Source: Streptomyces sp. NBC_01294 (GTDB lineage Bacteria > Actinomycetota > Actinomycetes > Streptomycetales > Streptomycetaceae). Taken from it: 64,000 nt of DNA. Of this stretch, positions 3,901-50,239 are shown piece by piece. The notes below the pieces were generated by a model, which saw only the letters and a list, made by a program, of their open reading frames with translations, ran no database searches and was not told where the DNA came from. The first letter of the stretch is position 1; each line of letters starts with the position of its first letter. The stretch lies in assembly GCF_035917235.1 (NCBI RefSeq), contig NZ_CP108423.1, forward strand, positions 7,903,501-7,967,500, written 5' to 3'. A program made the translations under genes and the position numbers.

Positions 3901-4285
3901 AGGGCGAGCTCAGCGTGGTCACATCGAACAGGCGCCGGTCCAGCCGGCCACTGTCGATGAGAGCCCGCGCGTCAGCGGGCACAGCGTAGGTATGTTTGCC
4001 GACGGTCTCAGTGAAGATGGGGATGTCTTCACGTCCCTTGGCGGGATATCTGGCGACGACCTCGCCCTTCGCGTTCACCGCCACCCGGTCGCCGGTGATC
4101 AGCGGGATCCACTGCTGCGCGCCGGCCGAGGCATCCTTGCCGGGGAGGCTGGACGTCGAAGCCGAAGGCGATGCTGTGCCGGCGGGATTTGCAAGTGCCA
4201 GGGATGTCGACGGTGTGCCGGCGACCAGCAGCATGCTGATCCCCACGACCGTGCTGAACGCTGGTCTCGTGAACTCGAACCTCAT
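938..4285 (-). CDS. Secreted subtilisin-like serine peptidase (family S8)
   Basis: This 1,115-residue protein is a secreted subtilase. The ATG at 4285 is chosen because it follows GAGAGGAAACC and starts a typical signal peptide (MRFEFTRPAFSTVVGISMLL, then ALA). The catalytic triad is visible: Asp244 in VLDSGVD, His276 in GHGTHVAS and Ser454 in NGTSMATPHVAG; the oxyanion Asn lies in IAAGNSGG. An inhibitor-like propeptide (about residues 40-210) precedes the catalytic domain (about 230-500). About 600 further residues form the beta-rich C-terminal region seen in large Streptomyces S8 peptidases. It probably acts outside the cell in protein degradation; the substrate is unknown. It is transcribed alone, leftward. 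The open frame continues upstream of 4285, but that part has no signal peptide or ribosome-binding site. Confidence 0.93.
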   Translation of the reverse strand: MRFEFTRPAFSTVVGISMLLVAGTPSTSLALANPAGTASPSASTSSLPGKDASAGAQQWIPLITGDRVAVNAKGEVVARYPAKGREDIPIFTETVGKHTYAVPADARALIDSGRLDRRLFDVTTLSSPFHAKHQDVRLIVMYEGARPAARTALYSTAGAEVQRTLPSINADAVTAPVNSAAKLWSTLTSGTADATNRTAAPGIASVWLDGVVEATLDKSVPQIGAPAAWDAGFDGAGVRIAVLDSGVDSTHPDLAGQVVAERNFSASPNMKDLYGHGTHVASIAAGTGAKSGGTHKGVAPGARILNAKVLDDKGTGSMSGVIAGMEWAAAEKVDIANLSLGSTDAPGTDPMEAAVEKLSAESGTLFVIAAGNSGGAGTVATPGSADAALTVGAVDKQDQLASFSSAGPRVGDSAIKPDLTAPGVDIAAAIPEDSLLANIGAPPVNGYKGLNGTSMATPHVAGAAAILAQQHPDWSADDIKKALVGSTKPGAHTAFEQGSGRVDLGRALKQSVISRETSLSFGLAQWPHTGDQPVAKNLTYRNTGSASVTLKLTVNATGPDGNPAPQGMFTVDEQVTIAAHGEATVQVTADTRLGGDLHGTYSGRITATGGGQSVGTAVGVERESERYTVTFKPLDRTGKPMPAPAWNATLQGLAGPAETTFAPLNEGQYSIRVPKGRYLVNSVLKVDPAGSYAQGMDWINQPRLDITADTTVTLDARTTKPIDVTVPNEHAQQAMGHIALYTAQASGAGIGYGLITKSFERFRTAHMGPKVDLSEQPLSQALSVTFTTGATGHDDYHLTYAPKGDTLLTGFTHHPKSRDFAKVEQRLGATAKNQLGFVTMRSEQGGGFGTPRALPYTGTMHLLSSSPTWWSKFTQVDMNDVEQSSHYEDGQQFKPGRSYKQTFNVGVFGPDLPPGAGLIRADETLNGDLPLFSDGNGHFNLNGMPHTEARTELYRNGELVSSSINPMDVFYIAEPERADYRLTAMIDRSTLAPRVSTRVTSSWTFSSEYAPGVTALPVSVVRFTPALSLDNTAKAGAKMRVPVTVKGSAAGNNLKSLSVYASYDGGAHWHKLTVRDGRVEVTNPKAGGSVSFKAKAVDKQGNAVEQTISHAYLTK

Positions 4286-4845
4286 GGTTTCCTCTCGCTC
4301 GTACACCTTGCGCCCACGGATGGATCGCAGGGTCCGACCCGAGACGAAGGCGCGCCTTGCAGCACGGAACCCCCGGCAGGGCAGTGGGACGTACGGCTGT
4401 ACTGCCGCCGACACACCGCCGCCGATCGATGTCGACCCTGTTGACATCCGGCCCCGGACGGGCCGAAGCCACGAGCGGGAGCCTTCTTCCGTGCACCGGT
4501 GATCACCGGCTGTGGGAATGATCCGCCGATCAGGCCGAGGCGACACCGGCTTCATGCGGCGCAACTGCGACATGACCCAACTGCGACATGCACGCGTGCG
4601 CCATCAGGCTGGAGCAGCCGGCTGGGCAACGCGGGGGAGCAGATGCCCCCTTAGCCGGATGATCGTGATCTTCCCTCTCCCGGGCCGAGCCTGCTCTCGT
4701 GCCGCTCCTCCTCGACACCTGTGCGGCCCCACCTCGCAGAGGGGTGCCCGATTGCTGCCTGTTGATACCGGGACAGGTGTGTGTGCCCGCCGTGGTACGG
4801 GATAACGGAAGCCAAATCGGGCAATGATCGCGGAAGGCGCCGCCT
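4286..4845. other. Intergenic region between divergent peptidase and transporter genes
   Basis: These 560 bp separate the leftward S8 peptidase from the rightward BCCT gene and must hold both promoters. A 12-bp direct repeat AACTGCGACATG occurs at 4563-4574 and 4579-4590, a 16-bp period that could be a regulator site. I found no convincing protein gene or structured RNA. Confidence 0.5.
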
Positions 4846-6435
4846 GTGTCTCAGGAGCAACGTAAACCGGGGCAGAGGCTGCGGCTGCCCGTGAGTGCGG
4901 CCCTGCCCGGCCGCCACCCGCACGAGGACAAGGCGCCCGTCACCGACCGGGTGGTCTTCGGCGTGACGGCCGTGCTGACCTTGGGCTTTGTGATCTGGGG
5001 CGTCACGGCCACCAGCGCGCTGGAGCGCGTCTCCGACACCCTGTTGAGCGGCCTGATGCACAACGGCGGCTGGGCCTTCGTCCTGGCCGCCTCGGGGTTC
5101 GTCGTCTTCGCGCTCTGGCTCGCCATCAGCCGGTACGGACGGATCGAGCTCGGCCAGGAGCACGAGAAGCCGGAGTTCAGCACCGTCTCCTGGGTCGCCA
5201 TGATGTTCAGCGCCGGCATGGGCATCGGCCTGATGTTCTGCGGCGTCAGCGAACCCCTCGCGCACTACACCTCTCCGCCGCCTGGCACCGACCCCGCCGA
5301 CTCGGCGGAGGCCATGCAGACGGCGCTCGCCACCACGCTCTTCCACTGGACGCTGCACCCGTGGGCCATCTACGCGGTCGTCGGGCTGGCCATCGCGTAC
5401 AGCACCTTCCGGCGCCGCAGGCGGCAGACGATCAGCGCCGTCTTCATCCCGCTCCTCGGGAAGAAGCGCGCCGAGGGCGCAGCCGGCCGGGTGATCGACA
5501 TCCTGGCGATCTTCGCCACGCTGTTCGGCTCCGCCACGTCCCTGGGGCTCGGCGCGCTCCAGATCGGCAGCGGCCTGCACGAGGTGGGCTGGCTGAGCAA
5601 GGCCGGGACGGGGCTGCTCGTCGCCATCATCGGCGTACTGACCGTCTGCTTCATCTTCTCCGCCGTCTCCGGCGTGGACAAGGGCATCCAGTGGCTCTCC
5701 AACATCAACATGGTGCTGGCCGTCATCCTCGCGGCCTTCGTGTTCGTCGTCGGCCCCACCGTCCTGGTCCTCGACCTGATCCCGACGTCCCTCGCCGCCT
5801 ACTTCGGCGAGCTGCCCCAGCTGATCGGCCGCACCGAGGCGTCCACGGGCGGCGGTGACGTCGCCGACTGGCTGAGCAGCTGGACGGTCTTCTACTGGGC
5901 CTGGTGGATCTCCTGGACGCCGTTCGTCGGCATGTTCATCGCCCGCATCAGCCGGGGCCGTACGATCCGTCAGTTCGTCGGCGGCGTCATCCTGGTGCCC
6001 AGCACCGTGAGTCTCGTCTGGTTCGCCGTCTTCGGCGGTACGGCCATGCGCCTGAAGGAGCAGGGGAAACTCGGCGAAGCGACCACGCCCGAGGCGCAGC
6101 TCTTCGGTGTGCTCCAGGAGTTCCCGATCGCCGGCGTGATGAGCCTGCTCGTGATGGTTCTGGTCGGCATCTTCTTCGTCTCCGGCGCCGACGCCGCGTC
6201 GATCGTGATGGGCACCCTCTCCCAGAAGGGCACCTTCGAACCCGCCCGGTTCATCGTCATCTTCTGGGGCGTGGTGACCGGGAGCGTGGCGGCCGTGATG
6301 CTGCTCGTCGGCGAGGGCAAGGGCGACGCCCTCGCGGGCCTGCAGCACTTGACGATCCTCGTCGCGGCACCGTTCGTCCTGGTGATGATCGGCATGTGCT
6401 GGGCCCTCTGCGGGACCTCCGCCAGGACCCGCTGA
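4846..6435 (+). CDS. BCCT-family betaine/choline/carnitine transporter, frameshifted near its end
   Basis: This integral membrane protein of about 12 helices takes up quaternary ammonium osmolytes such as glycine betaine or choline with Na+ or H+. It starts at GTG 4846 behind GGAAGG. Family signatures are clear: MFSAGMGIGLMFCGVSEP (about residues 121-138) and the Trp-rich stretch WAWWISWTPFVGMFIARISR. The frame ends at 6435 with the unnatural tail CGTSARTR. If one base is restored near 6408-6412 (CTC-TGC read as CTC-CTG), it reads on as WALLRDLRQDPLIVRGELAEE and continues to a stop at 6614. So the last roughly 60 cytoplasmic residues are shifted out of frame. All transmembrane helices are before the break, so the transporter may still work. 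A sequencing error is possible. Confidence 0.9.
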   Translation: MSQEQRKPGQRLRLPVSAALPGRHPHEDKAPVTDRVVFGVTAVLTLGFVIWGVTATSALERVSDTLLSGLMHNGGWAFVLAASGFVVFALWLAISRYGRIELGQEHEKPEFSTVSWVAMMFSAGMGIGLMFCGVSEPLAHYTSPPPGTDPADSAEAMQTALATTLFHWTLHPWAIYAVVGLAIAYSTFRRRRRQTISAVFIPLLGKKRAEGAAGRVIDILAIFATLFGSATSLGLGALQIGSGLHEVGWLSKAGTGLLVAIIGVLTVCFIFSAVSGVDKGIQWLSNINMVLAVILAAFVFVVGPTVLVLDLIPTSLAAYFGELPQLIGRTEASTGGGDVADWLSSWTVFYWAWWISWTPFVGMFIARISRGRTIRQFVGGVILVPSTVSLVWFAVFGGTAMRLKEQGKLGEATTPEAQLFGVLQEFPIAGVMSLLVMVLVGIFFVSGADAASIVMGTLSQKGTFEPARFIVIFWGVVTGSVAAVMLLVGEGKGDALAGLQHLTILVAAPFVLVMIGMCWALCGTSARTR

Positions 6436-6990: not shown

Positions 6991-7295
6991 CGGTCTCTTC
7001 TCCTGTGCGTGTAGTGACGATCGAGAGAGAAGACGCAGGCCCGGTACGGGAGGTTCACCGGGCGACCGTTCCCTGTGGGGAGCCGGCATCCCCGACTCGG
7101 GTCGAGGTTGTCCCTCACCCCTACGATCCCCTGCGGCTCCTGGTCGGACAGACTCTGCATGCGCTGCAGCGTCTCCTGCCCGATGCCCCGGATGAAGTCG
7201 GCGAGGGCAGGGTTCATTCCCTCGTGCACGAGGGGGACGCGCACCTTCCTGCCGACCACACGGAACTCATCCTTCTCCACGACCCGGTACCGCAT
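6987..7295 (-). pseudogene. Truncated GyrI-like / AraC effector-binding domain protein
   Basis: From ATG 7295 (preceded by AAGGGAG) the first 70 residues, MRYRVVEKDEFRVVGRKVRV through GVRDNLDP, match the N-terminal half of GyrI-like effector-binding proteins, which bind small hydrophobic ligands. After about 7085 the homology stops and 30 residues of unrelated sequence (ending SLDRHYTHRRRDR) lead to the stop. The family is normally about 150 residues, so the second half is lost, probably by deletion or rearrangement in this disturbed stretch. It is unlikely to be functional. Confidence 0.6.
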
Positions 7296-7402
7296 GCTGC
7301 TGCTCCCTTCGACGGTGAGGCGGAAGGACAGCCGTGGCGGGGACTGCAGACTCGCACCGGACCGCCTGGCCTCGCCGGGACCGTCGCCGTGCACGGCGCG
7401 GA

Positions 7403-7722
7403 ATGCACGCGTGCGCCACGGCCGGCCCGGTCCTGTCGCTGCTGGGCGCCCCGGACGACCTGATCGGGCCGGGCGCCGCCTCCCTGCGGGTGATGGCCTT
7501 CGCCGTTGCCTTCGCCGCCGTCTCGTTCACCCTCCAGGGCGTGCGCCGGCATCGGAGCCACGCGGGTCTCGATGTACACCGCCCTCAACCTGCCCCTCGG
7601 CCGCGACACCACTGGCACTGCTGAGCCTGGCCCCCTTCGTCGTGGCCATGTCCCACGCCGCACTGCTGCGGGCCGCCGGTGACACCCGGGCGGTCATGTT
7701 CGCCTCCGTGACCAGCGACTAC
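7403..7722 (+). pseudogene. Decayed MATE-family efflux transporter fragment
   Basis: Three short pieces in three frames read like one MATE protein. LLGAPDDLIGPGAASLRVMA and FAAVSFTLQGV fall at about 7430-7541. GATRVSMYTALNLPLG falls at about 7560-7607 in another frame. LAPFVVAMSHAALLRAAGDT with MFASVTSDY falls at about 7625-7722 in a third. The order is right for MATE transporters, but start, end and continuity are lost. The leftward ECF S-component gene ends inside it, which suggests that a deletion joined two loci. Confidence 0.65.
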
Positions 7723-8602
7723 CGGCGGCAGCCTCGGCAGACGGGTAGCCGTCATCCCCGGCCCGCTCGCCCGCTCGCCCGGCCCGCCAGGGAGGGGCCG
7801 TGACCGTACGGGGTGCGAAGCGGATGGGGGCGTGGAAGCGGGCCTTGCGGGCGGCGCGGCGGAAGACGGTCAGGACGGCCGGGCCGGCCAGGCAGATGCA
7901 GACGAAGTTGGTGACGGCCCGGCCGGTGTCCCAGCCGAGGGAGGTGGCCAGGTCGAAGGCGAGGTAGCGCTGGAACTGCTCGGTGAAGGGAAGACCGGGG
8001 AGGTAGGCGATGGAGCTGTTCGGGTCGAGGGAGAAGGGCCAGAAGGAGAGGTTGAGGAGGAAACCGAAGAGGTAGCCGGACACGGAGCCGTAGACGGCGA
8101 GCAGGGCGACCTCCCGGCGCCCCGTGGCCTTCGGCAGGAAGCCGGCCAGCATGCCGACGAAGGCGCAGCCGAACATCTGGTACGGCATCCAGGGCCCGAC
8201 GCCGCCCGTGATGAGGGCGGAGGCGAAGAGCGAGGTGCAGCCCAGGGTGAAGCCGAAGCCGGGGCCGTAGACGCGGCCGGCCAGGACGAGGATGAAGAAC
8301 ACCGTCTCGATGCCGGCGGTCCCCGCGCCCAGCGGGCGGATGGCGGCGTTGACGGCCGACAGGACACCCAGCATCGCCAGGGCCTTGGAGTTGATGCCGC
8401 CCTCGGCGATCTCGGAGATCACCACGCACAGCACGATGACGAGCAGGACACCGAAGATCAGGGGCGGCGCGTAGTTCGAGCCGAACTTGCCCGGGGCGAC
8501 GAGGAACGGCCAAAAGAACGCGACGACCCCGAGGAAGGCCGCCATGCCGATGACGATCCCGGCCCGGGCGCGGATGCGGATGGCCGCGGTGTACGTGCTC
8601 AC
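7694..8602 (-). CDS. ECF transporter substrate-binding S component (cobalamin/corrinoid inferred)
   Basis: This membrane protein is the specificity subunit of an energy-coupling-factor importer. It starts at GTG 8602, overlapping the stop of the ATPase gene by 4 nt (GTGA). Several hydrophobic segments are visible (GIVIGMAAFLGVVAFFWPFL; PPLIFGVLLVIVLCVVISEI; VFFILVLAGRVYGPGFGF), with the usual S-component loop GGVGPWMPYQMFGCAFVGML. Substrate is inferred, not shown: the operon begins behind a cobalamin riboswitch. The last 35 or so residues (after about FHAPIRFAP) are Arg-, Gly- and Ala-rich and unlike the rest, and the stop at 7694 lies inside the MATE pseudogene, so the natural C-terminus has probably been replaced. 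At 302 residues it is slightly long for the type. Confidence 0.8.
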   Translation of the reverse strand: MSTYTAAIRIRARAGIVIGMAAFLGVVAFFWPFLVAPGKFGSNYAPPLIFGVLLVIVLCVVISEIAEGGINSKALAMLGVLSAVNAAIRPLGAGTAGIETVFFILVLAGRVYGPGFGFTLGCTSLFASALITGGVGPWMPYQMFGCAFVGMLAGFLPKATGRREVALLAVYGSVSGYLFGFLLNLSFWPFSLDPNSSIAYLPGLPFTEQFQRYLAFDLATSLGWDTGRAVTNFVCICLAGPAVLTVFRRAARKARFHAPIRFAPRTVTAPPWRAGRAGERAGDDGYPSAEAAAGSRWSRRRT

Positions 8603-10254
8603 GCGTCCGGGTCCGTTCCGTCGGCGGGGAGTACGGCGGCCAGCTGGTCCACGGTGAGGAAGGGCAGCGGGGCCAGGATCTTCGCGGTCTGCGGGGCGAA
8701 GACGGGGGAGGCGACGATGACCTCGGTGGTCGGGCCGTCGGCGACGACGTCACCCTCGGCCATGACCACGACGCGGTCGGCGGCCCGGGCGACGAACTCC
8801 ACGTCGTGCGTGGAGATCACCACGGCGCGCCCCTCGGCGGCCAGGTCGTCGACGATGCGGATCAGTTCGCCCTTGGCGCGGTAGTCGAGTCCGCGGGTGG
8901 GCTCGTCCAGCAGCAGCACCCGGGGGGCGGCGGTCAGCTGGATCGCGAGGACGAGGGCGAGCTTCTGGCCCTCCGACAGGTCGCGGGGGTGGGTGGTGTC
9001 GGGGATGCCGGGAGCCAGTCGGTCCAGGATCGTGCGGGCCCGGATCCCGTCCGCCGACACCCCGGACTCGGCGTCTGCCTGGTCGAGTTCCTGCTTGACC
9101 GACTCCAGGTAGAGGAGGTCGGTTGGGGTCTGCGGGACCAGGCCGACCAACTGCCGCGCGTCCGCGGCGGAGAGCTTCTGCGGATCCCGCGGTTTCGGGC
9201 CGTCGGGAGCACCGACGGCCACGGAGCCGGCCTTGCGGGGACCGGACCCCTGGAGGGCCCACAGGAGGGAGGACTTGCCGGAGCCGTTGCGGCCCATGAG
9301 CGCGGTGACCTCGCCTCCGTGCAGGGTCAGATCGACCTCCCGTACGGCCGGCACGCCGTGGTAGGCGACGGTGACGCCGCGCGCGGTGAGCAGCTCCGTG
9401 CCGTCCGCGGCGGGAGCGGGCCGTACCGGCGGGGGAGCGGCGCCGGCCAGCCGGGTGCGCAGCGGTGCCGCGGCCCGGCGGGCGTCGCGGATCGAGAGGG
9501 GGAGCGGGTTCCAGCCCGCGGCGCGGCCGAGCTCCACGATGGGCGGGGCGATGGAGGACGTACGGAAGATCTCGGCGGGCGTACCGGAGACGACGCGGCC
9601 GTCGCCGGGGAGGTGGATGACGCGGTCGGCGTACTGGACCACGCGTTCCAGACGGTGTTCGGCGAGCAGGACGGTGACGCCCAGGTCGTGCACGAGCCGG
9701 GTGACGGCGGCGAGCACCTCCTCCGCCGCGGTCGGGTCCAGGGCCGAGGTGGGCTCGTCGAGGACCAGGATCCGGGGGTGGGCGGTGAGGACCGAGCCGA
9801 TGGCGACACGCTGTTGCTGCCCGCCGGAGAGCTCGTGCAGGGCGCGGTGGCGGAGGTCGGCGAGGCCGAGGAGGTCGAGGGTCTCCTCGACGCGTTTGCG
9901 CATGGTGGCCGGGGGGACCGCCAACTGTTCCATGGCGTAGGCGAGTTCCTCCTCGACGGTGTCGGTGACGAAACCGTCGAGCGGGTCCTGTCCCACGACG
10001 CCGACCACATCCGCGAGTTCGCGCGGCGGGTGGTCGGCGGTGTCGCGGCCGTCGACGAGGACGCGCCCGTAGAGAGTGCCGCCGGTGAAGTGCGGGACGA
10101 GCCCGTTGACGGCGCCGAGCAGGGTGGACTTGCCGACGCCGGTGTGGCCGACGACGAGGCAGAGTTCGCCCTCCTCGACGGTCAGGTCCACGTCGCGCAG
10201 CACGGGTTCGGCCGTGTCCTCGTACTGGACGGTGACCTGGTCGAAGTGGATCAC
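8599..10254 (-). CDS. ECF transporter ATPase with two fused ABC domains (A1-A2)
   Basis: This cytoplasmic protein of 551 residues powers the ECF importer. GTG 10254 is chosen because it overlaps the stop of the T-component gene (GTGA) and begins the ABC fold directly (IHFDQVTVQYED). Domain 1 has Walker A GHTGVGKST, signature LSGGQQQRV and Walker B LVLDEPTSALD. Domain 2 has Walker A GRNGSGKSS, a divergent signature LSEGQKLAL and Walker B LLLDEPTRGLD, with the switch His in ISTHD. A linker of about 60 residues joins the halves. Fused EcfA1-A2 ATPases are common in actinobacterial ECF systems. Confidence 0.92.
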   Translation of the reverse strand: MIHFDQVTVQYEDTAEPVLRDVDLTVEEGELCLVVGHTGVGKSTLLGAVNGLVPHFTGGTLYGRVLVDGRDTADHPPRELADVVGVVGQDPLDGFVTDTVEEELAYAMEQLAVPPATMRKRVEETLDLLGLADLRHRALHELSGGQQQRVAIGSVLTAHPRILVLDEPTSALDPTAAEEVLAAVTRLVHDLGVTVLLAEHRLERVVQYADRVIHLPGDGRVVSGTPAEIFRTSSIAPPIVELGRAAGWNPLPLSIRDARRAAAPLRTRLAGAAPPPVRPAPAADGTELLTARGVTVAYHGVPAVREVDLTLHGGEVTALMGRNGSGKSSLLWALQGSGPRKAGSVAVGAPDGPKPRDPQKLSAADARQLVGLVPQTPTDLLYLESVKQELDQADAESGVSADGIRARTILDRLAPGIPDTTHPRDLSEGQKLALVLAIQLTAAPRVLLLDEPTRGLDYRAKGELIRIVDDLAAEGRAVVISTHDVEFVARAADRVVVMAEGDVVADGPTTEVIVASPVFAPQTAKILAPLPFLTVDQLAAVLPADGTDPDA

Positions 10255-11453
10255 TTGGGTTCCTCGGTGCGCTGTACGGGGGCGGTCGATCGGGCGGGAG
10301 CGGCCGGTCGGGCGGGGGCGGCCGGGGGCGGTGCCAGGAAGCCGGCGGTCCCGGCGAGGAGGATCGCCGCGGCGGGTACCAGCGGCAGCGCGGGCCAGCT
10401 GAGCGGGTAGATGGACGGGTTGAGCTCGGCGGCGTTGAAGCCGGCGTTGCTGAAGAGGAGTACCGCGGACAGGACGCCGCAGCCCGCGACGGCCCACTCC
10501 GCGGCCCGCCAGGGGTCGGGCCGGTAGGTGGTGCGGGTGATGCGGCGGCCGCCGAGGCGGAGTCCGGCGAAGCACAGCAGGGCGCCCGCGCCCATGGCGG
10601 GGAGCCCGAGCAGCTTCGGCGCGGTGGCGTCGAGGAGGCCGTACGCCCCGGCGCACAGGCCGCACATGCCGAGCAGCATCAGGGCGCCCGTCAGACGGCG
10701 GGAGCGGCGGGTGGCCGTGCCGGCGCGGCCGTAGCCGCGGGAGTCCATGGCAGCGGCCAGCCGCAGGGACCGCTCCAGGGCGTCTTCGAGGACGGGGACG
10801 ATGATGCCGCGCAGGGCCCGGAGCCCCTTGGCGCGGCCGGCCCGCAGCCGCTTGGCCCGGTGGACGCGCTGGACGCTCTGCACCAGCTGGGGTGCGACGC
10901 TGATGGACACGGTGACGGCGACCCCGAGTTCGTAGAGGGCGCCGGGCAGGACGCGCAGGGCCCGTTTGGGGTTGGCGAGGGTGTTGGCGGCGCCGATGCA
11001 GCACAGCATGCAGGCCAGGCGCAGCCCGTCGGTCGCGGCCGAGAGCAGCGCTTCCAGCGACACCGGCCCGCCGAGCTGGATGCCCGCGTACCAGTCGGGG
11101 GTGGGGATGTGGGGGAGGGAGAAGAGGAAGTGGTCGCGGGGCGTGATGCCCGTGGCGAAGACGGCGCGGAAGACGACGCGGATCGCGACGACGGTGAGCG
11201 CGAGGTAGAGGTAGTACTTGAAGCCCCGCGCCCAGGGGGCCTCGGTACGGCGCATGGTGATCACGTAGCCGAGGACCGCGAGGACGAGGAACAGCAGCAG
11301 CGGGTTGTTGGTGCGGCTCACCGCCGTGGCCAGGGCCAGGGCCCAGATCCACCACGCGACGGGATGCACGGTGCGGGGCAGACGGCGGCCGCCCGCATCC
11401 GGCGCGAGGCCGGACGCGGGCGGCTTGGCCGCGGCCGTGATGGTGCGTGACAC
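10251..11453 (-). CDS. ecfT: ECF transporter transmembrane T component (CbiQ/EcfT family)
   Basis: This membrane protein of 400 residues couples the ATPase to the S component. GTG 11453 is preferred over GTG 11468 because GGAG lies 7 nt before it and it starts just after the upstream gene stops. The coupling helix motif characteristic of EcfT is visible at RLAAAMDSRGYGR, and there are six or more hydrophobic segments (for example NNPLLLFLVLAVLGYVITM). The C-terminal 25 residues are Pro- and Ala-rich and probably disordered. Its place between the surface-protein genes and the ATPase supports one functional transporter operon. Confidence 0.88.
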   Translation of the reverse strand: MSRTITAAAKPPASGLAPDAGGRRLPRTVHPVAWWIWALALATAVSRTNNPLLLFLVLAVLGYVITMRRTEAPWARGFKYYLYLALTVVAIRVVFRAVFATGITPRDHFLFSLPHIPTPDWYAGIQLGGPVSLEALLSAATDGLRLACMLCCIGAANTLANPKRALRVLPGALYELGVAVTVSISVAPQLVQSVQRVHRAKRLRAGRAKGLRALRGIIVPVLEDALERSLRLAAAMDSRGYGRAGTATRRSRRLTGALMLLGMCGLCAGAYGLLDATAPKLLGLPAMGAGALLCFAGLRLGGRRITRTTYRPDPWRAAEWAVAGCGVLSAVLLFSNAGFNAAELNPSIYPLSWPALPLVPAAAILLAGTAGFLAPPPAAPARPAAPARSTAPVQRTEEPK

Positions 11454-11457
11454 GCGG

Positions 11458-12375
11458 CTACTCCGCACGACGGCGGCGCTTGGCCGCGAACACGGCGGCG
11501 GCGCCGATCAGCAGCACCAGCGCTCCGGTGGCGACGGCGGGCAGGTACGAGCCCGCGTCGTGCTGGGTGTCGGCGGCGGGCGCCGCGTCGACGACCGCGG
11601 GGCCGGGTGCGGGCGCGGCCTCGGCGGGGGCACTGGACGAAGGTGGCGCGGAGGGCGTGGGCGAGACGCTCTCGGAGGGGCTCGCCGAGGCCGAGGGGCT
11701 TTCCGAAGCCGTGGGGCCGGGCGCCGTGGTCGGCGGCGGCGGGTTCTCCGGTTTGGGGCCCGTGTTGACGCTCGGGGGGAGGGGAGCGGCCGTGCGGGTG
11801 TCCTTGGGCGCGGGCCCGCCGGTCGGCCTGGTGTTCTTGGCGCGCAACTGGTCGGGGGTGACCGTGGGTTTGCCCTCGGTGCCCTCGATGTTCGTGCCGC
11901 CGAAGATCCACAGGTCGACGCTGCCGGGCTTCGGCTTGTAGAGCATGGCGCCGAGCTGGCTGTACTCCCAGGTGTTCTGGCCGGGGTTCGCGTGCCAGTA
12001 CGACCAGTAGGCGGAGGCGGGCGGGGTGAGGACGCAGTCGTCCTGCTGCGGGGTCGGGTACTGCTTGCCGCCCTGGTGGCCGCTGTAGCCGATCCGGCAG
12101 ATGAAGGCGGGGCCGTCGTGGCCGGTGCCGGTGGTCGCCCAGCCGCCCTGGTTCAGGAGTTCGTAGCCGGTGGTGGGCGCGGTGCCGCAGGAGCGGTAGA
12201 CGGGCCCGCCCCAGTGGCTGAAGTCCACCGCGAGGACGACACCGGACGAGGTCGTGCACTGGCCCATCGGCTGCGGGGCGGCCCCGGCCGGGCCGGCGGT
12301 GGCGGCGAACGCCGCAACCGTCAGTCCGAGCACGGACGTTGCGCGGGCGAGGGCGCGCATGAAGCGGGAGTTCAT
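11458..12375 (-). CDS. Membrane-anchored secreted protein with a DUF4430-like beta domain
   Basis: This 305-residue protein starts at ATG 12375, overlapping the stop of the previous gene (ATGA). It has a signal peptide (ALARATSVLGLTVAAFAA, then AGAAP), one globular domain at about residues 38-160, a Pro/Ser/Ala-rich linker of about 110 residues, and a C-terminal membrane helix (ATGALVLLIGAAAVFAA) followed by KRRRRAE. The globular domain (GYELLNQGGW, FICRIGY, DDCVLTPPASAYWSYWHA, LWIFGG) is clearly homologous to the N-terminal domain of the neighbouring toroid protein. I read it as a DUF4430-like beta domain, related in plan to the C-terminal domain of transcobalamin; that step is inference. 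It may hold or hand over the ligand near the ECF transporter. Confidence 0.75.
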   Translation of the reverse strand: MNSRFMRALARATSVLGLTVAAFAATAGPAGAAPQPMGQCTTSSGVVLAVDFSHWGGPVYRSCGTAPTTGYELLNQGGWATTGTGHDGPAFICRIGYSGHQGGKQYPTPQQDDCVLTPPASAYWSYWHANPGQNTWEYSQLGAMLYKPKPGSVDLWIFGGTNIEGTEGKPTVTPDQLRAKNTRPTGGPAPKDTRTAAPLPPSVNTGPKPENPPPPTTAPGPTASESPSASASPSESVSPTPSAPPSSSAPAEAAPAPGPAVVDAAPAADTQHDAGSYLPAVATGALVLLIGAAAVFAAKRRRRAE

Positions 12376-15338
12376 CGGTCCGCCTCCGCGGGGTTGCGGC
12401 GTGCGCGCGCCATGACGACGAGGCGCCAGCCGGCCAGCGTCAGCGCGGCTGCGGTACCCGCCAGCACACCGACCTGGACGCCGGTGGAGGCGAGGTTGCC
12501 GCCCGGACCGCCCGGACCGCCCGGACCGCCCGGACCGCCCGGACCGCCCGGACCGCCCTGCGCGACGGCGACGCCGCTGCCCGCGCCGCCCGTGGTCTCG
12601 CCGGGCGTCACGATGACCGGCGTACCACCCGTACCACCGCTGCCACTCGTACCACCGGTGCCGCCCGAGGTGGCCGTGGAGCTGGGGACGGGCTGCGGGG
12701 TGGTGCCGTCCAGGCTGCGGGTGAGGGTGCCGAAGGAGACGCCGGTGGTGCCGCTGATGGCCTGGGTGGAGGCCCGGACGTCGGAACCGGGCTGGCTGCC
12801 CTTGGCGACGTTGAAGCCGCCGTCGGCGTTCTGCTGGCTCGCGAGGAACGTGCGGGCCTTGGCGATCTGGGCGCTGTACTTGGCCGCGTCCAGCGAGAGC
12901 CCTTGGATGGCGAGGGCGGCGGAGTTGACGGAGTTCCCGGAGGCGCCTTCGAAACCGCCGTCTGCCTTCTGCTGCGCCGCGAGCCAGGCCAGCGCCTGGT
13001 CCACGGCACGCTGCGAGTCGGCGTCGGGCAGCAGGTCCACGGTCATGGCGGCCATGGCGGTGGAGTCGACCTCGGTGGTGCTGGGCTCGCCGATCAGGCT
13101 GACCCAGCCGCCGGAGGGGTCCTGGAGGCTCTTGAGGTACGCGATCGGCTCGGCCGCGGCGGCCGTCTCGCCGGCGCGGACCTGGGCGATGACGCCGAGC
13201 GACTGCTTGAAGACGGAGGTGGCGTAGGCGTAGTTGCCCTTGGACGCACACTCCTGGCGGGTCGAGGTCTTGGCCTGGCAGGTGATCTTGGCGAGCGCGG
13301 AGATCAGGTCCTGGCCGCCGAAGTTGCGGGGGTCGCGGCCCACGGCCTCGGCGAGCACGGCGGCCTTGCCGATGGAGCCGCCGGACGCGTACTTCGTGCC
13401 GACGAGGGTCCAGTCGTGGATGCCGCGGTTCTGGGCGTCCTTGCCGCCCTTGTCGAAGAAGTCGACGATGTTGCGCAGCGTCGCGTTGTCACCGCCGGTG
13501 GCCGCGAGGGCGTAGGCGCCGTCGATGGTCATGCCGTAGTCGGCACGGCCCCCACCGGGCTCGCTCTCGTAGTAGCGGCCCTGGATCAGCTGCTTGGGGG
13601 CGGTGAGGTACGCCACGCCCTTCTTGATGTCCGGTCCGTCGCCCGGCGGGACCGTCGGCTTGGGGGCGGTGGGCGTGGGCTTCGGTTCAGTCGGTGTGGG
13701 CTTCGGTTCGGTGGGCGTCGGCTTGGGCTCGGTCGGTGTGGGCTTGGGATCCGTGGGCGTCGGCTTGGGCTCGGTCGGCGTCGGCGTCGGGTCGGCCTTC
13801 TTGCCCGTCAGGGCCACCAGGTCGCTCTTGGCACCCGCGACGGCGACGGGGACGGTGGCGAACACGCGCGATGCGGTGTCGTCCGCCTCGAAGCCGAAAC
13901 CGCCCTCGGGGAACTGGTGCTTGGAGAGCCACGAGAGGCCCGCGTCCGCGTGGCCGGCGTCGCCGAGGGCGCGCAGGGCCTGGGCGGCCCAACCGGTGGA
14001 AGCCGGGCTGCCGGTGGTCATGAAGGAGGCGGAGGGCCAGGCGCCGCTCGCCAGTTGGGACTTCTTGAGCTGGGCCCGCGCCCTTTCGACGGCCGCGTCG
14101 TGGCCGCCGGCCCGCTTGAGGGCCAGGGCGATCAGGCCCGTGGAGCTCGCGTCGCTGTCGCACCATTCGCCGGCGCGGATGAGGATGCCGGTGAAGCCGC
14201 CGTCCTCGCACTGCAGGCCATTCAGCCGGTTCACGGCGTCGGCGGGAGGCGTCACGCCACCGTTGAGGAGGGCGATGACGGCCATGGCCTGGGCGTCGGC
14301 CTGGCCGGTGGTCCGGAAGTCCCCCCTGGTCAGACAGCCTTCGACGGTCTCACCGTCACCGATGTCCCTGGGGCAGACGTACTTGACGAGGTCGCCGAGC
14401 AGGTCGTGGCCGCCGAAGGCACGGGGGTCCTTGCCGGTGGCCTCGGCGACGAGCGCGAGGCGCGCGGCGGCGCCGGCGTCGGGGATCCCGTCCTTGCCGG
14501 CCGGGTAGGCGTACGCGTCCGTCTGCTCGGGCGTGGCGAGGAAGTCGGCGGCCTTCCGGGCCGCCGGGCTCTCCCTGTCGGTGGCGGCCAGGGCGAATAC
14601 GACCTCGCTGGTGAGGAAGTGGTTCGGAGTGGTGGAGCCCTCGTCGACGACGCGCTCCCCGTCCGTCAGCTTCCCGGTGAGCCAGCGGGTGGCGGCGGCC
14701 ACGTCGACCGCGCCCGGCGGAACGGTCGGCGGCACGGTCGGCCCGGTCGGGTCCGGTGAGGGGGCGCCGCCGCCCGCGCGCACGTCGTCGGGGGAGAAGG
14801 TGGGCTTGCCCGAAGTGCCGCCGATGTCGGTGCCGCCGAACACCCAGGCGTCCACGTCACCGGGCTTCGGGGTGCGCGACATGGCACCGAGCGGGCTGTA
14901 GGTCCAGTTCTTCTGACCGGGCGAGGCGATCCAGTACGACCAGTACGCGGTGGCCTGCGGGGTGAGGACGCAGTCCTCCTTGTCCGGAGTGGGGTACTGC
15001 GTACCGGAGTTGAAGGAGCCGTTGCCCATGCGGCAGATGAAGGCCGGGCCGTCGTGGACGGTGCCCTCGGTCGTGAAGCCGCCGGTGTGCAGCAGCTCGT
15101 AACCGGTCGTCGGCGTGGTGTCGCAGCCGCGCTCGACCTTGCCGCCGAAGGGTCCGAAGTCGACGGCGACGACGGCGCCGGTGGTGGCCGTGCACTGCTC
15201 GATCGGGTCGGCGTTGGCGGACGAGGGAACCGTGAGGAGGGCCACTCCCGCACCGAGCGTCAGGAAGGTCGCGGTCACGAGGGAGAGGAGCCGCCGTCTC
15301 GTCCCCGATTGCCGTTTTGCCTGCTGTTCGGTCCCCAC
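12372..15338 (-). CDS. Cell-wall-anchored (LAXTG) protein with beta domain and two alpha/alpha toroids
   Basis: The protein has 988 residues from GTG 15338 (GAGG upstream, then a signal peptide ending SSANA). Domains in order are: a DUF4430-like beta domain (about 45-170; GYELLHTGGF, FICRMGNG, AYWSYWIA, AWVFGG); an alpha/alpha toroid of prenyltransferase/squalene-oxidase repeats (about 195-515; repeat cores NGLQCEDGGF, KKSQLASGAW, SKHQFPEGGF); a TPTEPKP linker; a second toroid (about 575-870; KSLQDPSGGW, AAQQKADGGF, ASQQNADGGF); a GPG-repeat stalk; the sorting motif LASTG; a membrane helix; and a basic tail. LAXTG is the class E sortase motif of Streptomyces. There are no catalytic cyclase DXDD motifs, so a binding role is likelier than an enzyme. 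The riboswitch upstream and the toroid plus beta-domain plan of intrinsic factor suggest corrinoid capture at the wall. Confidence 0.85.
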   Translation of the reverse strand: MGTEQQAKRQSGTRRRLLSLVTATFLTLGAGVALLTVPSSANADPIEQCTATTGAVVAVDFGPFGGKVERGCDTTPTTGYELLHTGGFTTEGTVHDGPAFICRMGNGSFNSGTQYPTPDKEDCVLTPQATAYWSYWIASPGQKNWTYSPLGAMSRTPKPGDVDAWVFGGTDIGGTSGKPTFSPDDVRAGGGAPSPDPTGPTVPPTVPPGAVDVAAATRWLTGKLTDGERVVDEGSTTPNHFLTSEVVFALAATDRESPAARKAADFLATPEQTDAYAYPAGKDGIPDAGAAARLALVAEATGKDPRAFGGHDLLGDLVKYVCPRDIGDGETVEGCLTRGDFRTTGQADAQAMAVIALLNGGVTPPADAVNRLNGLQCEDGGFTGILIRAGEWCDSDASSTGLIALALKRAGGHDAAVERARAQLKKSQLASGAWPSASFMTTGSPASTGWAAQALRALGDAGHADAGLSWLSKHQFPEGGFGFEADDTASRVFATVPVAVAGAKSDLVALTGKKADPTPTPTEPKPTPTDPKPTPTEPKPTPTEPKPTPTEPKPTPTAPKPTVPPGDGPDIKKGVAYLTAPKQLIQGRYYESEPGGGRADYGMTIDGAYALAATGGDNATLRNIVDFFDKGGKDAQNRGIHDWTLVGTKYASGGSIGKAAVLAEAVGRDPRNFGGQDLISALAKITCQAKTSTRQECASKGNYAYATSVFKQSLGVIAQVRAGETAAAAEPIAYLKSLQDPSGGWVSLIGEPSTTEVDSTAMAAMTVDLLPDADSQRAVDQALAWLAAQQKADGGFEGASGNSVNSAALAIQGLSLDAAKYSAQIAKARTFLASQQNADGGFNVAKGSQPGSDVRASTQAISGTTGVSFGTLTRSLDGTTPQPVPSSTATSGGTGGTSGSGGTGGTPVIVTPGETTGGAGSGVAVAQGGPGGPGGPGGPGGPGGPGGNLASTGVQVGVLAGTAAALTLAGWRLVVMARARRNPAEADR
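12499..12558. repeat. 9-bp tandem repeat encoding a GPG stalk
   Basis: The unit CCGCCCGGA is repeated six times exactly, then partly. On the coding (minus) strand it gives a collagen-like Gly-Gly-Pro run just before the LASTG sorting motif, likely a flexible spacer through the peptidoglycan. Copy number may vary between strains. Confidence 0.9.
13657..13782. repeat. 21-bp tandem repeat encoding TPTEPKP linker
   Basis: Six 21-bp units encode TPTEPKP variants (E, D or A at one position) joining the two toroid domains. Synonymous differences between units suggest that the array is not newly expanded. Confidence 0.85.
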
Positions 15339-15460
15339 CGCAGCCCTCGTCTCTGCCGGGCGGCTGCGTACGTGGCGATGCGCCCCTGCACGGCCTGAGG
15401 CCATGGAGAGGCTGCGACGACCACACCGCAATCCGCGACGGCGCTCTTCGTACTGTGGCC

Positions 15461-15549
15461 CAACACCAGGCATTCCGGCTCGCCCGGGAAGAACCGGGCC
15501 TACGGTTGCGGGACAGCGCCGGAATTCGACCGGCTTCCCCTGGTGCTGA
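15461..15549 (-). promoter_or_regulatory. Cobalamin riboswitch of the leftward ECF/toroid operon
   Basis: Read on the minus strand, the segment has the conserved cobalamin boxes in order: AGGGGAAGCCGGT, then ATTCCGGCGCTG, then TCCCGCAACCGTAGG, a small hairpin (CCCGGTTCTTCCCGGG) and GAGCCGGAATGCCTGGTG. The closing stem P1 pairs 15539-15545 with 15464-15470 over 7 perfect bp. It ends about 120 nt before the GTG at 15338. Members of this class bind adenosyl- or related cobalamins and switch the downstream gene off when B12 is plentiful. That mode is inferred from the class. Confidence 0.88.
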
Positions 15550-15674
15550 GCAGTTATCAGGCGGAGTGCAACACGGATCCCGACGACGCGTCAAGGTGGC
15601 CTGAGTCTCAGCGGACCAGCCCCGGGCGGAGGCGGTCCGCGTCACGGATCCGGTGGCTGGCGGTCCCTTGATCA

Positions 15675-15790
15675 CTCGGGTAGCGTCCTGGGCTGCCACG
15701 TGGGGGAATCCGGTGCGATGCCGGAGCTGACGCGCAGCGGTGTGGGACGGCGGGGGCCGTTTCCGAGCCCGAATGCCCATCCGGCGATGC
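15675..15790 (+). promoter_or_regulatory. Cobalamin riboswitch of the rightward toroid gene
   Basis: The plus strand contains GGGGGAATCCGGTGCGAT (15701-15718), then GCCGGAGCTGACGCGCAGCG, then GAGCCCGAATGCCC, nearly the same core as the E. coli btuB cobalamin riboswitch (GGGAATCC, GTGCGA, GAGCTGACGCGCAGCGGT, AGCCCGAA). CGGGT at 15677-15681 can pair with ATCCG at 15779-15783 as P1. It lies about 130 nt before the ATG at 15919 and is divergent to the riboswitch at 15461-15549, so B12 would control both units of the locus. Confidence 0.88.
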
Positions 15791-15918
15791 ACCACAGAAG
15801 CCGTACCACGCGTTCCGGACGGCGGCTCTCCGGCCATGCCCCTGCCCCGCCACCGTGAGCGGGCTCCTTGCGGCGTGTCCAGGCAGTGGCCGGCGTCCGC
15901 CGATTCCAGGAGCAGGCC

Positions 15919-17346
15919 ATGTCCCGTCCCCGCACGCCCCGTCCCCGCACGCCCCGCCGCCTCGCGCTCGCGGTGCCCGCCGCCCTCGGCGCCCTCGCCC
16001 TCACCGCGCTGCCCGCCTTCGCGACCTCGTCGCCGGCGCAGATCGCCACGTCGAAGACCAACGGCGTCGCCTACCTCAAGTCCCTCCAGGCGGCCGACGG
16101 TTCGTACGCCGGCTCCGGCCTGTCCAACGAGTGGGCGTTCAGCACCTTCGCCGCCGCCGGCACCGCGGTCGTCGACGTCGCCCCCGGCGGGGACACCACG
16201 AAGAACGCCCGGACCGTCTACCGCAACCTTCTGTCCACCGCGGGCTGGCCCTCCGGCGCACCGGTGGTCACCGACTACGAGCGCGGCACCCTGAACGCGT
16301 ACGCCGCGGGCATCGACCCGGCCCGCGTGTCGGCCTCCCGCAACCTCATCGCGCACGTCTACTCGTACTGGCAGACCGCCGAGGCGGGCTACTTCGGGCC
16401 GTCCGGCAACTTCAACGGCACCGTCTTCGCGGCCCTCTCCCTGGGCGGCGCGAAGACCCAGGCCGGCGGCGCCCGTGTTCCGCAGGCACTCACCGACTCG
16501 ATGGTCACGCGCATCCGGGCCAACCAGCACGTCGACGGCGGCTGGACCTACCAGAAGGCCGAGGGCAACCCCACCGTCCTCAACTCCGCGAGCGACGTCG
16601 ACATGACCGGCGCCGCGATGGCCGCCCTCTGCGTCTCCGGCGTCCCCAACACCGACACCGACGTCGTCCAGGCCAAGAACTTCCTCAAGGGCAAGCTCGT
16701 CGCCAACTCCGGTGCCTTCAACTCCCTGTACGGGGTCAACACCAGCTCCAACGGCTGGGGCGTCGCCGGCCTCAACGCCTGCAGCATCAACCCGCAGACC
16801 GGTGACTTCCTCACCGTCAACGGCAAGACCCCGATCGACTTCCTGATCGCCAACCAGTACAACCCGGCGGGCGGCTTCAAGTACAAGCCGTCCGACACCA
16901 CCCCGACCGCCTACGCGTCGATCGACGCGCTGCGCGCCGTGGCCGGTGGCGGATTCACCACGGCCCCGCCCGTCCCGGTCACCCCCGGGGCCCCGCAGTG
17001 GGTCGCGCAGTCCACCTTGACCGCCGGCACCGCCACCAAGCTCGCCCTGACCGTCGACGACGGCGCCGGCAACCTCAAGGTCTGCTCGGTGGCCTTCACG
17101 CCGACCGGTACGACCACCACCCTCGGCGACGTCCTGAACGCGGCGACCAGCGGCGCCACCCCGTCGGGCTGTGTCACCGGCGTCACCCCCTCGTCGGGCA
17201 CCGGCACCATCACTAACGTCAACGGCAAGGCCAACAGCGGCGGCAACACCTGGAAGGTGAGCGTCGACGGCTCCGCCTTCGCCGGCGCGCTCCGCGAGAA
17301 GGTGATCAACGTGGGCGACACGATCGCCCTGCGCTGGGGCGCCTGA
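15919..17346 (+). CDS. Secreted alpha/alpha-toroid protein with C-terminal DUF4430-like domain (transcobalamin-like)
   Basis: The protein has 475 residues; ATG 15919 follows AGGAG by 6 nt. A signal peptide (ALAVPAALGALALTALPAFA) precedes an alpha/alpha toroid of prenyltransferase/squalene-oxidase-type repeats at about residues 45-355 (LKSLQAADGSY, RANQHVDGGW, IANQYNPAGGFKY). A beta domain of about 110 residues follows (VCSVAFTPTG, TLGDVLNAA, NTWKVSVDGS, NVGDTIALRWG), matching the DUF4430 pattern. This toroid then beta-domain order is that of animal intrinsic factor and transcobalamin. There is no wall-sorting motif or membrane anchor, so it is probably released. The cobalamin riboswitch upstream supports a B12/corrinoid-binding role. 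Family-level binding is inferred, not proven. Confidence 0.87.
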   Translation: MSRPRTPRPRTPRRLALAVPAALGALALTALPAFATSSPAQIATSKTNGVAYLKSLQAADGSYAGSGLSNEWAFSTFAAAGTAVVDVAPGGDTTKNARTVYRNLLSTAGWPSGAPVVTDYERGTLNAYAAGIDPARVSASRNLIAHVYSYWQTAEAGYFGPSGNFNGTVFAALSLGGAKTQAGGARVPQALTDSMVTRIRANQHVDGGWTYQKAEGNPTVLNSASDVDMTGAAMAALCVSGVPNTDTDVVQAKNFLKGKLVANSGAFNSLYGVNTSSNGWGVAGLNACSINPQTGDFLTVNGKTPIDFLIANQYNPAGGFKYKPSDTTPTAYASIDALRAVAGGGFTTAPPVPVTPGAPQWVAQSTLTAGTATKLALTVDDGAGNLKVCSVAFTPTGTTTTLGDVLNAATSGATPSGCVTGVTPSSGTGTITNVNGKANSGGNTWKVSVDGSAFAGALREKVINVGDTIALRWGA

Positions 17347-17349
17347 TCC

Positions 17350-17420
17350 CCTCCGGGTGCGGGGACCCGCGTACGGGCCCCCGCACCCGGAGGCCGGAGT
17401 ACGGGCCCCGCACCCGGAGG
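17350..17420 (+). terminator. Strong terminator hairpin with a duplicated 3' arm
   Basis: Starting 4 nt after the toroid-gene stop, CCTCCGGGTGCGGGG (17350-17364) pairs perfectly with 17379-17393. The same 3' arm, CCCCGCACCCGGAGG, is repeated at 17406-17420, so two alternative hairpins are possible. Confidence 0.8.
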
Positions 17421-17484
17421 CACGAGTGCGGGCCCGGTGCGCACGGAGCCCGACGAGCCTCCGTGCGCGACCGGGCCGCGGCGA

Positions 17485-17706
17485 TCAGTCCGTCAGATAG
17501 GCCCGGGTGATCGTGATCTCCGACTTGCTGCCCGAGGCGTCGGTCACCGTGCCCCGCAGGGACACGTGGCCGCCCTTCGGCGGGTTCTTCACCGTCACCG
17601 CGCCGGACGCGACCGGGGCCCTGCGCCAGGTGTAGCCGTCGTCGTACGAGATGGACCGTCAGGGACTTCGGCTTGCCGCCGACGACGGTGACCGGGACGC
17701 GGACCC
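17485..17706 (-). pseudogene. Remnant of the C-terminus of an S8-type secreted peptidase
   Basis: On the minus strand the pieces VRVPVTVVGGKPKSLTV and, after a frame break near 17655-17665, YDDGYTWRRAPVASGAVTV, then KNPPKGGHVSLRGTVTD and ITITRAYLTD end at TGA 17485-17487. This is the same C-terminal domain that closes the intact subtilisin at 938 (SYDGGAHW, then SHAYLTK). Nothing of the catalytic domain remains. It is a leftover of a lost paralogue. Confidence 0.7.
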
Positions 17707-17847
17707 TCCGGTCCGCCGGCGAGGTAGCCGCCAGGATGGGTGCTGATCGGCACGCCTCGGGTGGCGTACGGCCGACGGCGCGCGGCGTCGGGTGATCGGC
17801 GAGGTGCGGAGAAAGGGTGACAGGATCTGTCGGGATTGGCGTGAACG

Positions 17848-18828
17848 ATGGATGACATGAGCAACGAGGACATCACCATCCGGAACGCCGGCCCCGACCA
17901 CCCGCGGCGCCCGCTCGCCGGCCGGATCGCGCTCGTGGCGGGGGCCACCCGCGGTGCCGGACGCGCCCAGGCCGTCGAGCTCGGCCGGGCCGGCGCCACC
18001 GTGTACGTCACCGGCCGCACCACCCGTACCCGGGCCAGCGAGGTCGGCCGGACGAGCGAAACCATCGAGGAGACAGCCGAGTTGGTCACCGCGGCCGGCG
18101 GCACCGGCATCGCGGTGCCCACGGACCACCTCGACGAGGACCAGGTACGCGCCCTCGTCGAGCGGATCGACCGGGAACAGGGGCGGCTCGACATCCTCGT
18201 CAACGACCTGTGGGGCGGTGAGCACCTCCTCGCCGGCTCCGTATTCGGGAAGAAGAGCTGGGAGACCCCCCTCGCCGACGGCCTGCGCATCCTGGAACTC
18301 GGCGCGCGCTCTCACGTGATCACCGCGGCGCTGCTGCTGCCCTTGCTGATCCGTTCGGACGCGCCGCTGCACGTGGAGGTCACCGACGGCACGGCGCGCT
18401 CCAACCGCCGCTACCGCGAGAACATGTACTACGACCTGGCGAAGAACGCCCCGATCCGGCTCGCGTTCGGGCTGGGCCAGGAGCTGGCGGAGTACGGGGG
18501 TACGGCGGTCGCGGTCTCGCCGGGTTTCCTGCGCTCGGAGCAGATGCTCGCCCACTTCGGGGTGAGCGAGGAGAACTGGCGCGACGCGATCGCCCGGGAG
18601 CCGGCCTTCGCCATCGCCGAGTCCCCGCAGTACCTGGCCCGCGCGGTCGCCGCGCTGGCCGCCGATCCCGGCCGGGCCGCCCGCTGGAACGGGAAGTCCA
18701 CCTCCAGCGGGGAGCTCGCGAAGACCTACGGGGTGCGGGACGCGGACGGCAGCCGCCCGGACGCCTGGGCCTACTTCGAGGACGTCATCCACGGCGGCAG
18801 GGAAGCCTCCGCCGAGGACTACCGCTGA
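17848..18828 (+). CDS. SDR-family oxidoreductase
   Basis: This 326-residue cytoplasmic enzyme is of the short-chain dehydrogenase/reductase type. The Rossmann motif is AGATRGAGRA (TGxxxGxG type), NDLWGG stands where NNAG normally is, and the catalytic Tyr-Lys pair is in YYDLAKN. It is longer than the usual 250 residues because of an N-terminal extension and a C-terminal stretch (WNGKSTSSGELAKTYGVRDAD) typical of a Streptomyces subgroup of unknown substrate. The start may be ATG 17848 or ATG 17857; no strong ribosome-binding site decides. Its 3' end overlaps the convergent WYL gene by 10 nt. Confidence 0.88.
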   Translation: MDDMSNEDITIRNAGPDHPRRPLAGRIALVAGATRGAGRAQAVELGRAGATVYVTGRTTRTRASEVGRTSETIEETAELVTAAGGTGIAVPTDHLDEDQVRALVERIDREQGRLDILVNDLWGGEHLLAGSVFGKKSWETPLADGLRILELGARSHVITAALLLPLLIRSDAPLHVEVTDGTARSNRRYRENMYYDLAKNAPIRLAFGLGQELAEYGGTAVAVSPGFLRSEQMLAHFGVSEENWRDAIAREPAFAIAESPQYLARAVAALAADPGRAARWNGKSTSSGELAKTYGVRDADGSRPDAWAYFEDVIHGGREASAEDYR

Positions 18829-50107: not shown

Positions 50108-50239
50108 CGTGAGCAGGGCTGACGCGAAGCCGTCGTGACCTTGTGGGTGCGATCGCCGCGTGCGAGGTGACGGCGGCTGCAGTGAGGCAGACGCAGACGC
50201 AGAGGCAGCCGGGGGCTCCGGCAACTCCGAACGCGACGA

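Follow-up and report, generated by a model that had tools for sequence, protein, structure and literature searches.

A candidate corrinoid uptake locus in Streptomyces sp. NBC_01294 with paired cobalamin riboswitches, transcobalamin-like exported proteins and an ECF importer

Introduction

The question raised by this locus is what exported proteins resembling the vitamin B12 carriers of animals do beside a membrane importer of the energy-coupling factor (ECF) class. The locus lies in a stretch of 64,000 nucleotides from Streptomyces sp. NBC_01294 (contig NZ_CP108423.1), called here the window, and all coordinates given without a contig are window positions. It consists of a right unit, gene D, and a left five-gene operon, C-B-T-A1A2-S. 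We consider it likely that the locus is a cobalamin-repressed corrinoid uptake system, which probably captures molecules of the B12 type at the surface of the cell. The analysis identified riboswitches, domain content and anchor signals, conservation in relatives, a profile link from the substrate-binding component S to the protein CbrT, and fusions of S with a toroid in related systems.

Bacterial proteins combining beta-grasp and toroid domains with signal peptides or wall anchors, with paralogues in one operon and CbiO/CbiQ neighbours, were described by Burroughs et al. 2007 (PMC1796856), who proposed B12 scavenging as their role. The same account proposes that animals acquired transcobalamin and intrinsic factor from surface proteins of bacteria that supply a CbiO/CbiQ transporter. 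The initial annotation of the window had set the coupling of toroid-beta proteins to an ECF importer apart from the animal architecture; the coupling is present, but this was overstated, as it had been proposed already in 2007. No experimental test of that proposal was found in a search of the open-access literature.

Results

Riboswitches and locus organisation

The two units are divergent, and each is preceded by a cobalamin riboswitch:

15661 to 15798, plus strand: cobalamin riboswitch in the leader of D (RF00174, 36.7 bits, E-value 1.1e-5)
15448 to 15580, minus strand: cobalamin riboswitch in the leader of the C-B-T-A-S operon (RF00174, 32.5 bits, E-value 1.7e-4)

Both matches exceed the Rfam gathering score of 31.5 bits, a test on which the initial annotation had staked its reading. 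They lie back to back, 80 nucleotides apart, between the divergent units and not flanking them as had been annotated. The local model R1, built partly from these same two sequences, gave 125.8 bits for the D leader and 108.4 bits for the operon leader (15449-15581, minus strand). The five minus-strand genes C, B, T, A1A2 and S overlap at every junction with the starts used; for C this was the GTG at 15338, as annotated initially, with the ATG at 15404 as a possible alternative.

Conservation among relatives

A scan of genome contigs with C found 49 loci, of which 23 (L016-L038) belong to close relatives and 26 (L039-L064) do not. Among the close relatives D was present in 20 of the 23 loci, and both divergent riboswitches were found by R1 in all 20 relatives with D, a count in which some rows match by construction, as R1 was built from 20 sequences, two of the window and 18 of these loci. 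By the Rfam model only, at least one over-threshold riboswitch was found near the start of C or D in every one of the 23 loci, and both in only five of the 20 loci with D (L016, L018, L024, L028 and L030). D was not matched in three loci; of these, L031 and L034 carry a single riboswitch and L033 carries three, and in L033 C is also split into separate genes for a beta protein and a toroid protein. The organisation of the locus is more than chance, because related species share the order of the genes and the two riboswitches.

All 26 remaining loci were scanned for RF00174, which was present in 16 and absent in ten. It was found in 13 of the 14 loci with a near-full-length match to A, the exception being L049 on a contig of 9.1 kb, and in three of the other 12 (L045, L046 and L050, all on contigs of at most 8.3 kb). 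Toroid relatives without ECF neighbours thus mostly lack the riboswitch. Beside the main locus of L035 a further riboswitch was observed, with toroid and beta proteins encoded by separate genes behind it (L035:6067-7889); the D match of L035 is limited to residues 31-313.

Exported proteins

The exported proteins encoded by the locus are the following:

15919 to 17346, plus strand: D, with an N-terminal hydrophobic signal stretch, an alpha/alpha toroid (model residues about 34-344), a C-terminal beta-grasp domain (about 373-474) and no anchor
12372 to 15338, minus strand: C, with a signal stretch, a beta domain near the N-terminus (about residues 46-190), two toroids separated by a Pro/Thr linker, an LASTG sorting signal and a transmembrane segment
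11458 to 12375, minus strand: B, with an N-terminal signal (recognised by eye, not flagged by the scan), a beta domain (about residues 36-180), a Pro/Ser-rich stalk, a C-terminal transmembrane segment and no sorting motif

Toroids together with DUF4430-like beta domains had been annotated for all three proteins, and this stands for C and D, while B has the beta domain only. Likewise, the order typical of transcobalamin, a toroid followed by a beta domain, is found in D alone; C is arranged as beta-toroid-toroid.

The structure model of D (m634da65d95cc) was based on an 85-row alignment and reached a mean predicted local distance difference test score (pLDDT) of 70 and a predicted template modelling score (pTM) of 0.62. 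After the toroid, the model has strands at 373-380 and 387-393, a helix at 402-412 and further strands at 443-448 and 469-474, which is the strand-strand-helix-strands order that, together with a toroid, distinguishes the SLBB domains of the transcobalamin clade. Foldseek found 484 matches to the model in the PDB, and ranks 1-15 were all transcobalamin, intrinsic factor or haptocorrin (E-values 8.7e-7 to 4.3e-5), with alignments spanning both domains in the same order. The structural match to transcobalamin anticipated for this gene in the initial annotation was in this respect recovered. The global superposition on the animal carriers was poor (TM-score 0.24-0.35, root mean square deviation 19-22), which means that the model does not recover how the two domains are positioned towards each other.

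Several observations weigh against D as a transcobalamin in the full sense. Its sequence profiles did not reach transcobalamin, and transcobalamin was absent from the best 50 rows of VIA-align for the D model. In addition, the insert before strand 3 (residues 413-442) contains no F, W, Y or H in any of the 84 rows covering it in the 85-row alignment, and a conserved aromatic residue in this insert is described as central to ligand binding in transcobalamin-type domains (PMC1949818). The aromatic-free insert of D could indicate that its ligand is a different one, or that its role does not involve base stacking. Because this aromatic is missing, D is termed here transcobalamin-like: as judged from its model it may work like a transcobalamin, and it is not assigned as a full one.

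The VIA-align rows follow the toroid and begin with squalene-hopene cyclases, continuing with GH76 enzymes and others, so that the list consists of cyclases, glycosidases and epimerases. Together with database names such as terpene cyclase/mutase family, this could suggest that the toroid proteins are enzymes (terpene cyclases, prenyltransferases or glycosidases), a reading that we find highly improbable. The DXDD motif of class II terpene cyclases is absent from C and D, the toroid proteins are exported, and across phyla they are linked to cobalamin riboswitches and ECF genes.

In the Pfam scan D remained below threshold throughout (toroid 13.0 bits against a cut-off of 26.2, DUF4430 13.4 against 23.8), and for C two toroid families were above the cut-off (PF13243 with 45.9 bits and PF00432 with 35.0 bits). 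No Pfam family of note was found for B, which had one row at chance level (E-value 0.098). The search with PF14478 (DUF4430), which had been suggested as a check, went against the annotation: B and C had no match, and D did not pass in the genome scan either (14.9 bits). The label DUF4430-like for B, C and D is thus based on topology and on weak profile comparisons. The beta domain of B is 63% identical to that of C and aligns with proteins of Chloroflexota, Propioniciclava and other actinobacteria.

With regard to anchoring, C has the features of an LAXTG sortase substrate, i.e. LASTG, a hydrophobic stretch and a basic tail, although the NCBIfam models for sorting signals gave no match to it. 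The motif LA[SAG]TG, again followed by a hydrophobic stretch and a basic tail, is kept in the C relatives of 22 of the 23 loci L016-L038, being absent in L034 and carried by the separate toroid gene in L033, and the annotated wall attachment through LASTG accordingly rests on a real and conserved motif. The transmembrane scan found the C-terminal segment of B and showed D to have only the hydrophobic N-terminal stretch. A sorting motif was found in none of the D frames of the 20 loci; the frame of L035, whose match stops at residue 313, does not end like D. The predicted placements are free for D, at the wall for C and in the membrane for B.

ECF importer and its substrate

The three last genes of the operon encode the importer:

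10251 to 11468, minus strand: T, EcfT of the CbiQ family (PF02361, 43.3 bits, cut-off 25)
8599 to 10254, minus strand: A1-A2, fused EcfA1-EcfA2 ATPases (two PF00005 (ABC_tran) stretches, 167.7 bits; ECF_ATPase_1, E-value 1e-88)
7694 to 8602, minus strand: S, EcfS substrate-binding membrane component (PF12822, 31.2 bits, cut-off 30.7)

The NCBIfam model ECF_ATPase_1 reached 297.2 bits on A1-A2, below its cut-off of 315 in spite of the E-value. A single operon thus encodes S, a T of its own and two A domains, in an order that is kept in relatives, and the genes have the characters of a Group I ECF transporter. The Pfam and NCBIfam matches identify all the parts, as annotated, including T as a member of the CbiQ family.

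For the substrate, the homology link from the window S to CbrT runs through an intermediate profile and not directly. The window S alone had no match in the PDB, and its profile A4 (16 rows) compared directly with the PDB did not find CbrT, the best match being a folate S-component (E-value 0.0096). A4 did match profile A10, constructed of the S part of the S-toroid fusions treated below (7.4e-19, probability 99), and the sole significant PDB match of A10 was 6FNP chain A, CbrT (1.9e-16). Also the 63-row profile of the whole fusions aligned with 6FNP over the S part (2.2e-19). The structure 6FNP is ECF-CbrT, a transporter shown to bind cobalamin and cobinamide and to transport both (PMC5997447). 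Because of this chain of profiles and the riboswitches, a corrinoid is our best guess for the substrate, as far as sequence comparison can suggest one.

The corrinoid need not be finished B12. The same machinery could take up a corrinoid that is incomplete or of another type (either cobinamide or a cobamide whose lower ligand differs) and feed the bacterium's own late cobalamin pathway, which we regard as possible, if rather doubtful. Such a ligand would suit the import of cobinamide by CbrT and the absence from the insert of D of the aromatic residue that is described as stacking on the cobalamin base, and in the same genome a CobQ gene (C1:6231346, 452.7 bits) is found on the same strand as a riboswitch, about 1 kb beyond it, so that salvaged precursors could be completed. 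Against it stands the presence of aromatic residues in the equivalent segment of B, C and the stand-alone secreted DUF4430 proteins, a segment located by eye on the alignments.

It seems improbable that the ECF part imports cobalt under cobalamin control, with the surface proteins binding cobalt or something else. T does belong to a family of cobalt transport, and a gene for the cobalt transporter CbtA (PF09490, 246.7 bits) follows a sub-threshold riboswitch (24.7 bits) elsewhere in the genome (L013, G000:C1 near 3897853). S, however, scores as a vitamin-type S-component and leads by profile to CbrT, the Pfam and NCBIfam scans gave no CbiM-type family for it, and a large toroid would be an odd binder of cobalt.

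S-toroid fusions in Solirubrobacterales

In five loci (L043, L049, L055, L057 and L059) S is followed by a toroid in one frame. Both S and toroid passed the Pfam cut-offs in L043, L049, L055 and L057, the toroid of L049 narrowly (26.4 against 26.1 bits), and in L059 the toroid only. Among 63 aligned homologues at an E-value of 1e-3, PF07155 was found in 55, PF13243 in 61 and both in at least 53. The fusion profile matched in 113 of 296 genomes of the phylum; among the matches listed, nine span S and toroid, five of them without a stop. Elsewhere in the phylum S and toroid are separate neighbouring genes (e.g. G445:C36).

In L043, L055, L057 and L059 a cobalamin riboswitch is followed by two beta proteins, and these by A and the S-toroid protein. 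Of the two beta proteins, the second is above the PF14478 cut-off in each of these loci (57.7, 47.2, 57.4 and 57.6 bits, respectively), and the first in L043 (34.7 bits) and L059 (30.6 bits) but not in L057 (23.7 bits) or L055 (18.1 bits). CbiQ was above the cut-off in L055, L057 and L059, the three loci covered by this Pfam scan (35.2, 67.5 and 55.0 bits). The record of L043 is titled as a metagenome-assembled genome of Bifidobacterium breve; its fusion locus is laid out as in the Solirubrobacterales records, and the label may be wrong.

In the structure model of the fusion, the S helices are followed by one helix at 217-232, of low confidence (about 50), and then by the toroid, which is well predicted (pLDDT mostly 88-98); a C-terminal helix lies at 609-634. 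With a pTM of 0.55 the relative placing of the domains is unreliable. The model fits an external toroid held over S. As the toroid is fused to S in riboswitch-led operons that also encode DUF4430 proteins, T and A, the fusions point to delivery from toroid to S. Some database entries name the fusion proteins ECF transporter S component, and a literature search, which covered part of PMC11109136, found no account of an S-toroid fusion.

Paralogues and other B12 genes in the genome

The S profile A4 matched in 129 of 150 Streptomycetaceae genomes. In 28 of the 150 the score was at least 376 bits, i.e. window-like, and among the matches listed the others scored about 262-339 bits. The D profile matched in 22 of the 150 genomes, in 19 of these near-completely (two split over two frames), and all 19 genomes with a near-complete D are among the 28 with the high-scoring S. 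The neighbourhood of the lower-scoring S was studied in the genome of the window (G000), where S at C1:5689651 belongs to a locus (L065, G000:C1:5685000-5702000) with the same order of genes, by their translations toroid-transmembrane, beta-transmembrane, T, A and S. Its riboswitch has 76.4 bits with R1 and 31.4 bits with Rfam, just below the threshold. Because of the two score classes of S, the restriction of near-complete D to genomes with the high-scoring S and the paralogue L065, the window locus is, as judged from the sequences, an accessory and larger form of a system that is more widespread among streptomycetes.

The distribution of D also bears on whether D and C chiefly hoard corrinoid or deny it to neighbours, as in the capture of a public good, with delivery to the ECF importer being secondary. 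D is anchor-free, has a riboswitch of its own and stands apart from the ECF operon, and neighbours in the soil could be deprived by it. D nevertheless accompanies the window-type S, and the S-toroid fusions tie the toroid to the importer; we therefore find hoarding as the chief function unlikely.

Other cobalamin genes of the genome include CobN (PF02514, 307.3 bits), which follows an over-threshold riboswitch (L005, G000:C1 near 1574743). A stand-alone secreted DUF4430 protein lies behind its own cobalamin riboswitch (L009, G000:C1 near 974917), and a close homologue of it adjoins D in L016, L017, L018 and L038. Of nine riboswitch-linked secreted relatives scanned, seven pass PF14478, those of L009 and L016 and both of L043 and of L059 among them.

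In its own genome the window was located at G000:C1:259171-323170 on the minus strand. Window positions 7000-18000 and 50000-56000 are 100% identical to a second, inverted place in the chromosome (C1:7910500-7921500 and C1:7953500-7959500), and the locus is thus carried twice. The two copies probably sit in a very long terminal inverted repeat; riboswitch pairs mirror out to about 466 kb. The adjoining genes of the window, a subtilase (938-4573, minus strand, PF00082, 207.2 bits) and a BCCT transporter (4846-6435, plus strand, PF02028, 575.9 bits), have no visible link to cobalamin.

Discussion

Proposed mechanism

In the uptake system proposed here, low intracellular cobalamin would allow both riboswitches to permit expression of D and of C-B-T-A-S, which cobalamin would otherwise repress. 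The toroid and the beta-grasp (SLBB) domains would form the two halves of a transcobalamin-like clamp holding the corrinoid, D and C being the catchers, the one secreted and the other fixed to the wall, and B the membrane-tethered beta half. These proteins would bring the ligand to S, in an order that we infer to run from D through C and B, and S together with T and the fused ATPases would import it. The initial annotation had read the locus as a surface relay of this kind for B12 or a corrinoid, an interpretation that the analysis supports in part.

A more specific reading is that the locus encodes a bacterial transcobalamin split over secreted, wall and membrane tiers, and an ECF transporter dependent on extracellular carriers, in which the toroid half, fused to S in Solirubrobacterales, docks on S and the corrinoid passes directly from the clamp to S. 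This we put forward tentatively, with doubt slightly outweighing belief. In ECF importers, S alone is generally held to bind the substrate. If true, carrier-dependent import would be a new working mode of the ECF class, and the locus would be a living model of the ancestor of the animal B12 carriers.

The locus unites a soluble, a wall-bound and a membrane-bound version in one streptomycete, and the natural S-toroid fusion in related bacteria indicates which part meets the transporter. It thereby opens the question of 2007 to direct testing, and might demonstrate the use of external binding proteins by ECF importers.

Comparison with known systems

D shares with animal transcobalamin, intrinsic factor and haptocorrin a toroid followed by a beta-grasp domain. 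It differs from them in being bacterial, in an identity of 12-15%, in domains that do not superpose as one body and in lacking the insert aromatic.

Within Streptomyces, the SCO2321 and SCO2322 families are alike in that C and B match them below the cut-offs (C to NF053823 SCO2321_fam with 139.7 bits against 300, B to NF040672 SCO2322_fam with 24.0 against 85) and in that the paralogue L065 has the same gene order. The low score of C, its larger size and the extra gene D set the window locus apart.

The ECF-CbrT transporter of Lactobacillus delbrueckii (PMC5997447) has the ECF architecture and an S family linked by profile to that of the window. The window differs in its dedicated T, fused ATPases and extracellular proteins of binding type, of which the part of PMC5997447 drawn on here mentions none for CbrT. 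BtuG of Bacteroides (PMC6143338; PMC6977713) is likewise a B12-binding surface protein serving a transporter, but it is a beta-propeller, i.e. another fold, and works with BtuB (PMC6977713).

The transcobalamin-type SLBB proteins of PMC1796856 are also secreted or wall-anchored, combine beta-grasp and toroid, occur as paralogous beta proteins in an operon and adjoin CbiO/CbiQ. There they are described from low-GC Gram-positives, planctomycetes and some archaea, the bacteria usually lacking key enzymes of B12 biosynthesis, whereas the window system belongs to a streptomycete with CobN and CobQ. New in comparison with the account of 2007 are this host with cobalamin biosynthesis genes, the riboswitch pair, the layout in three tiers, the link to CbrT, the S-toroid fusion in relatives and the status of the locus as an accessory paralogue.

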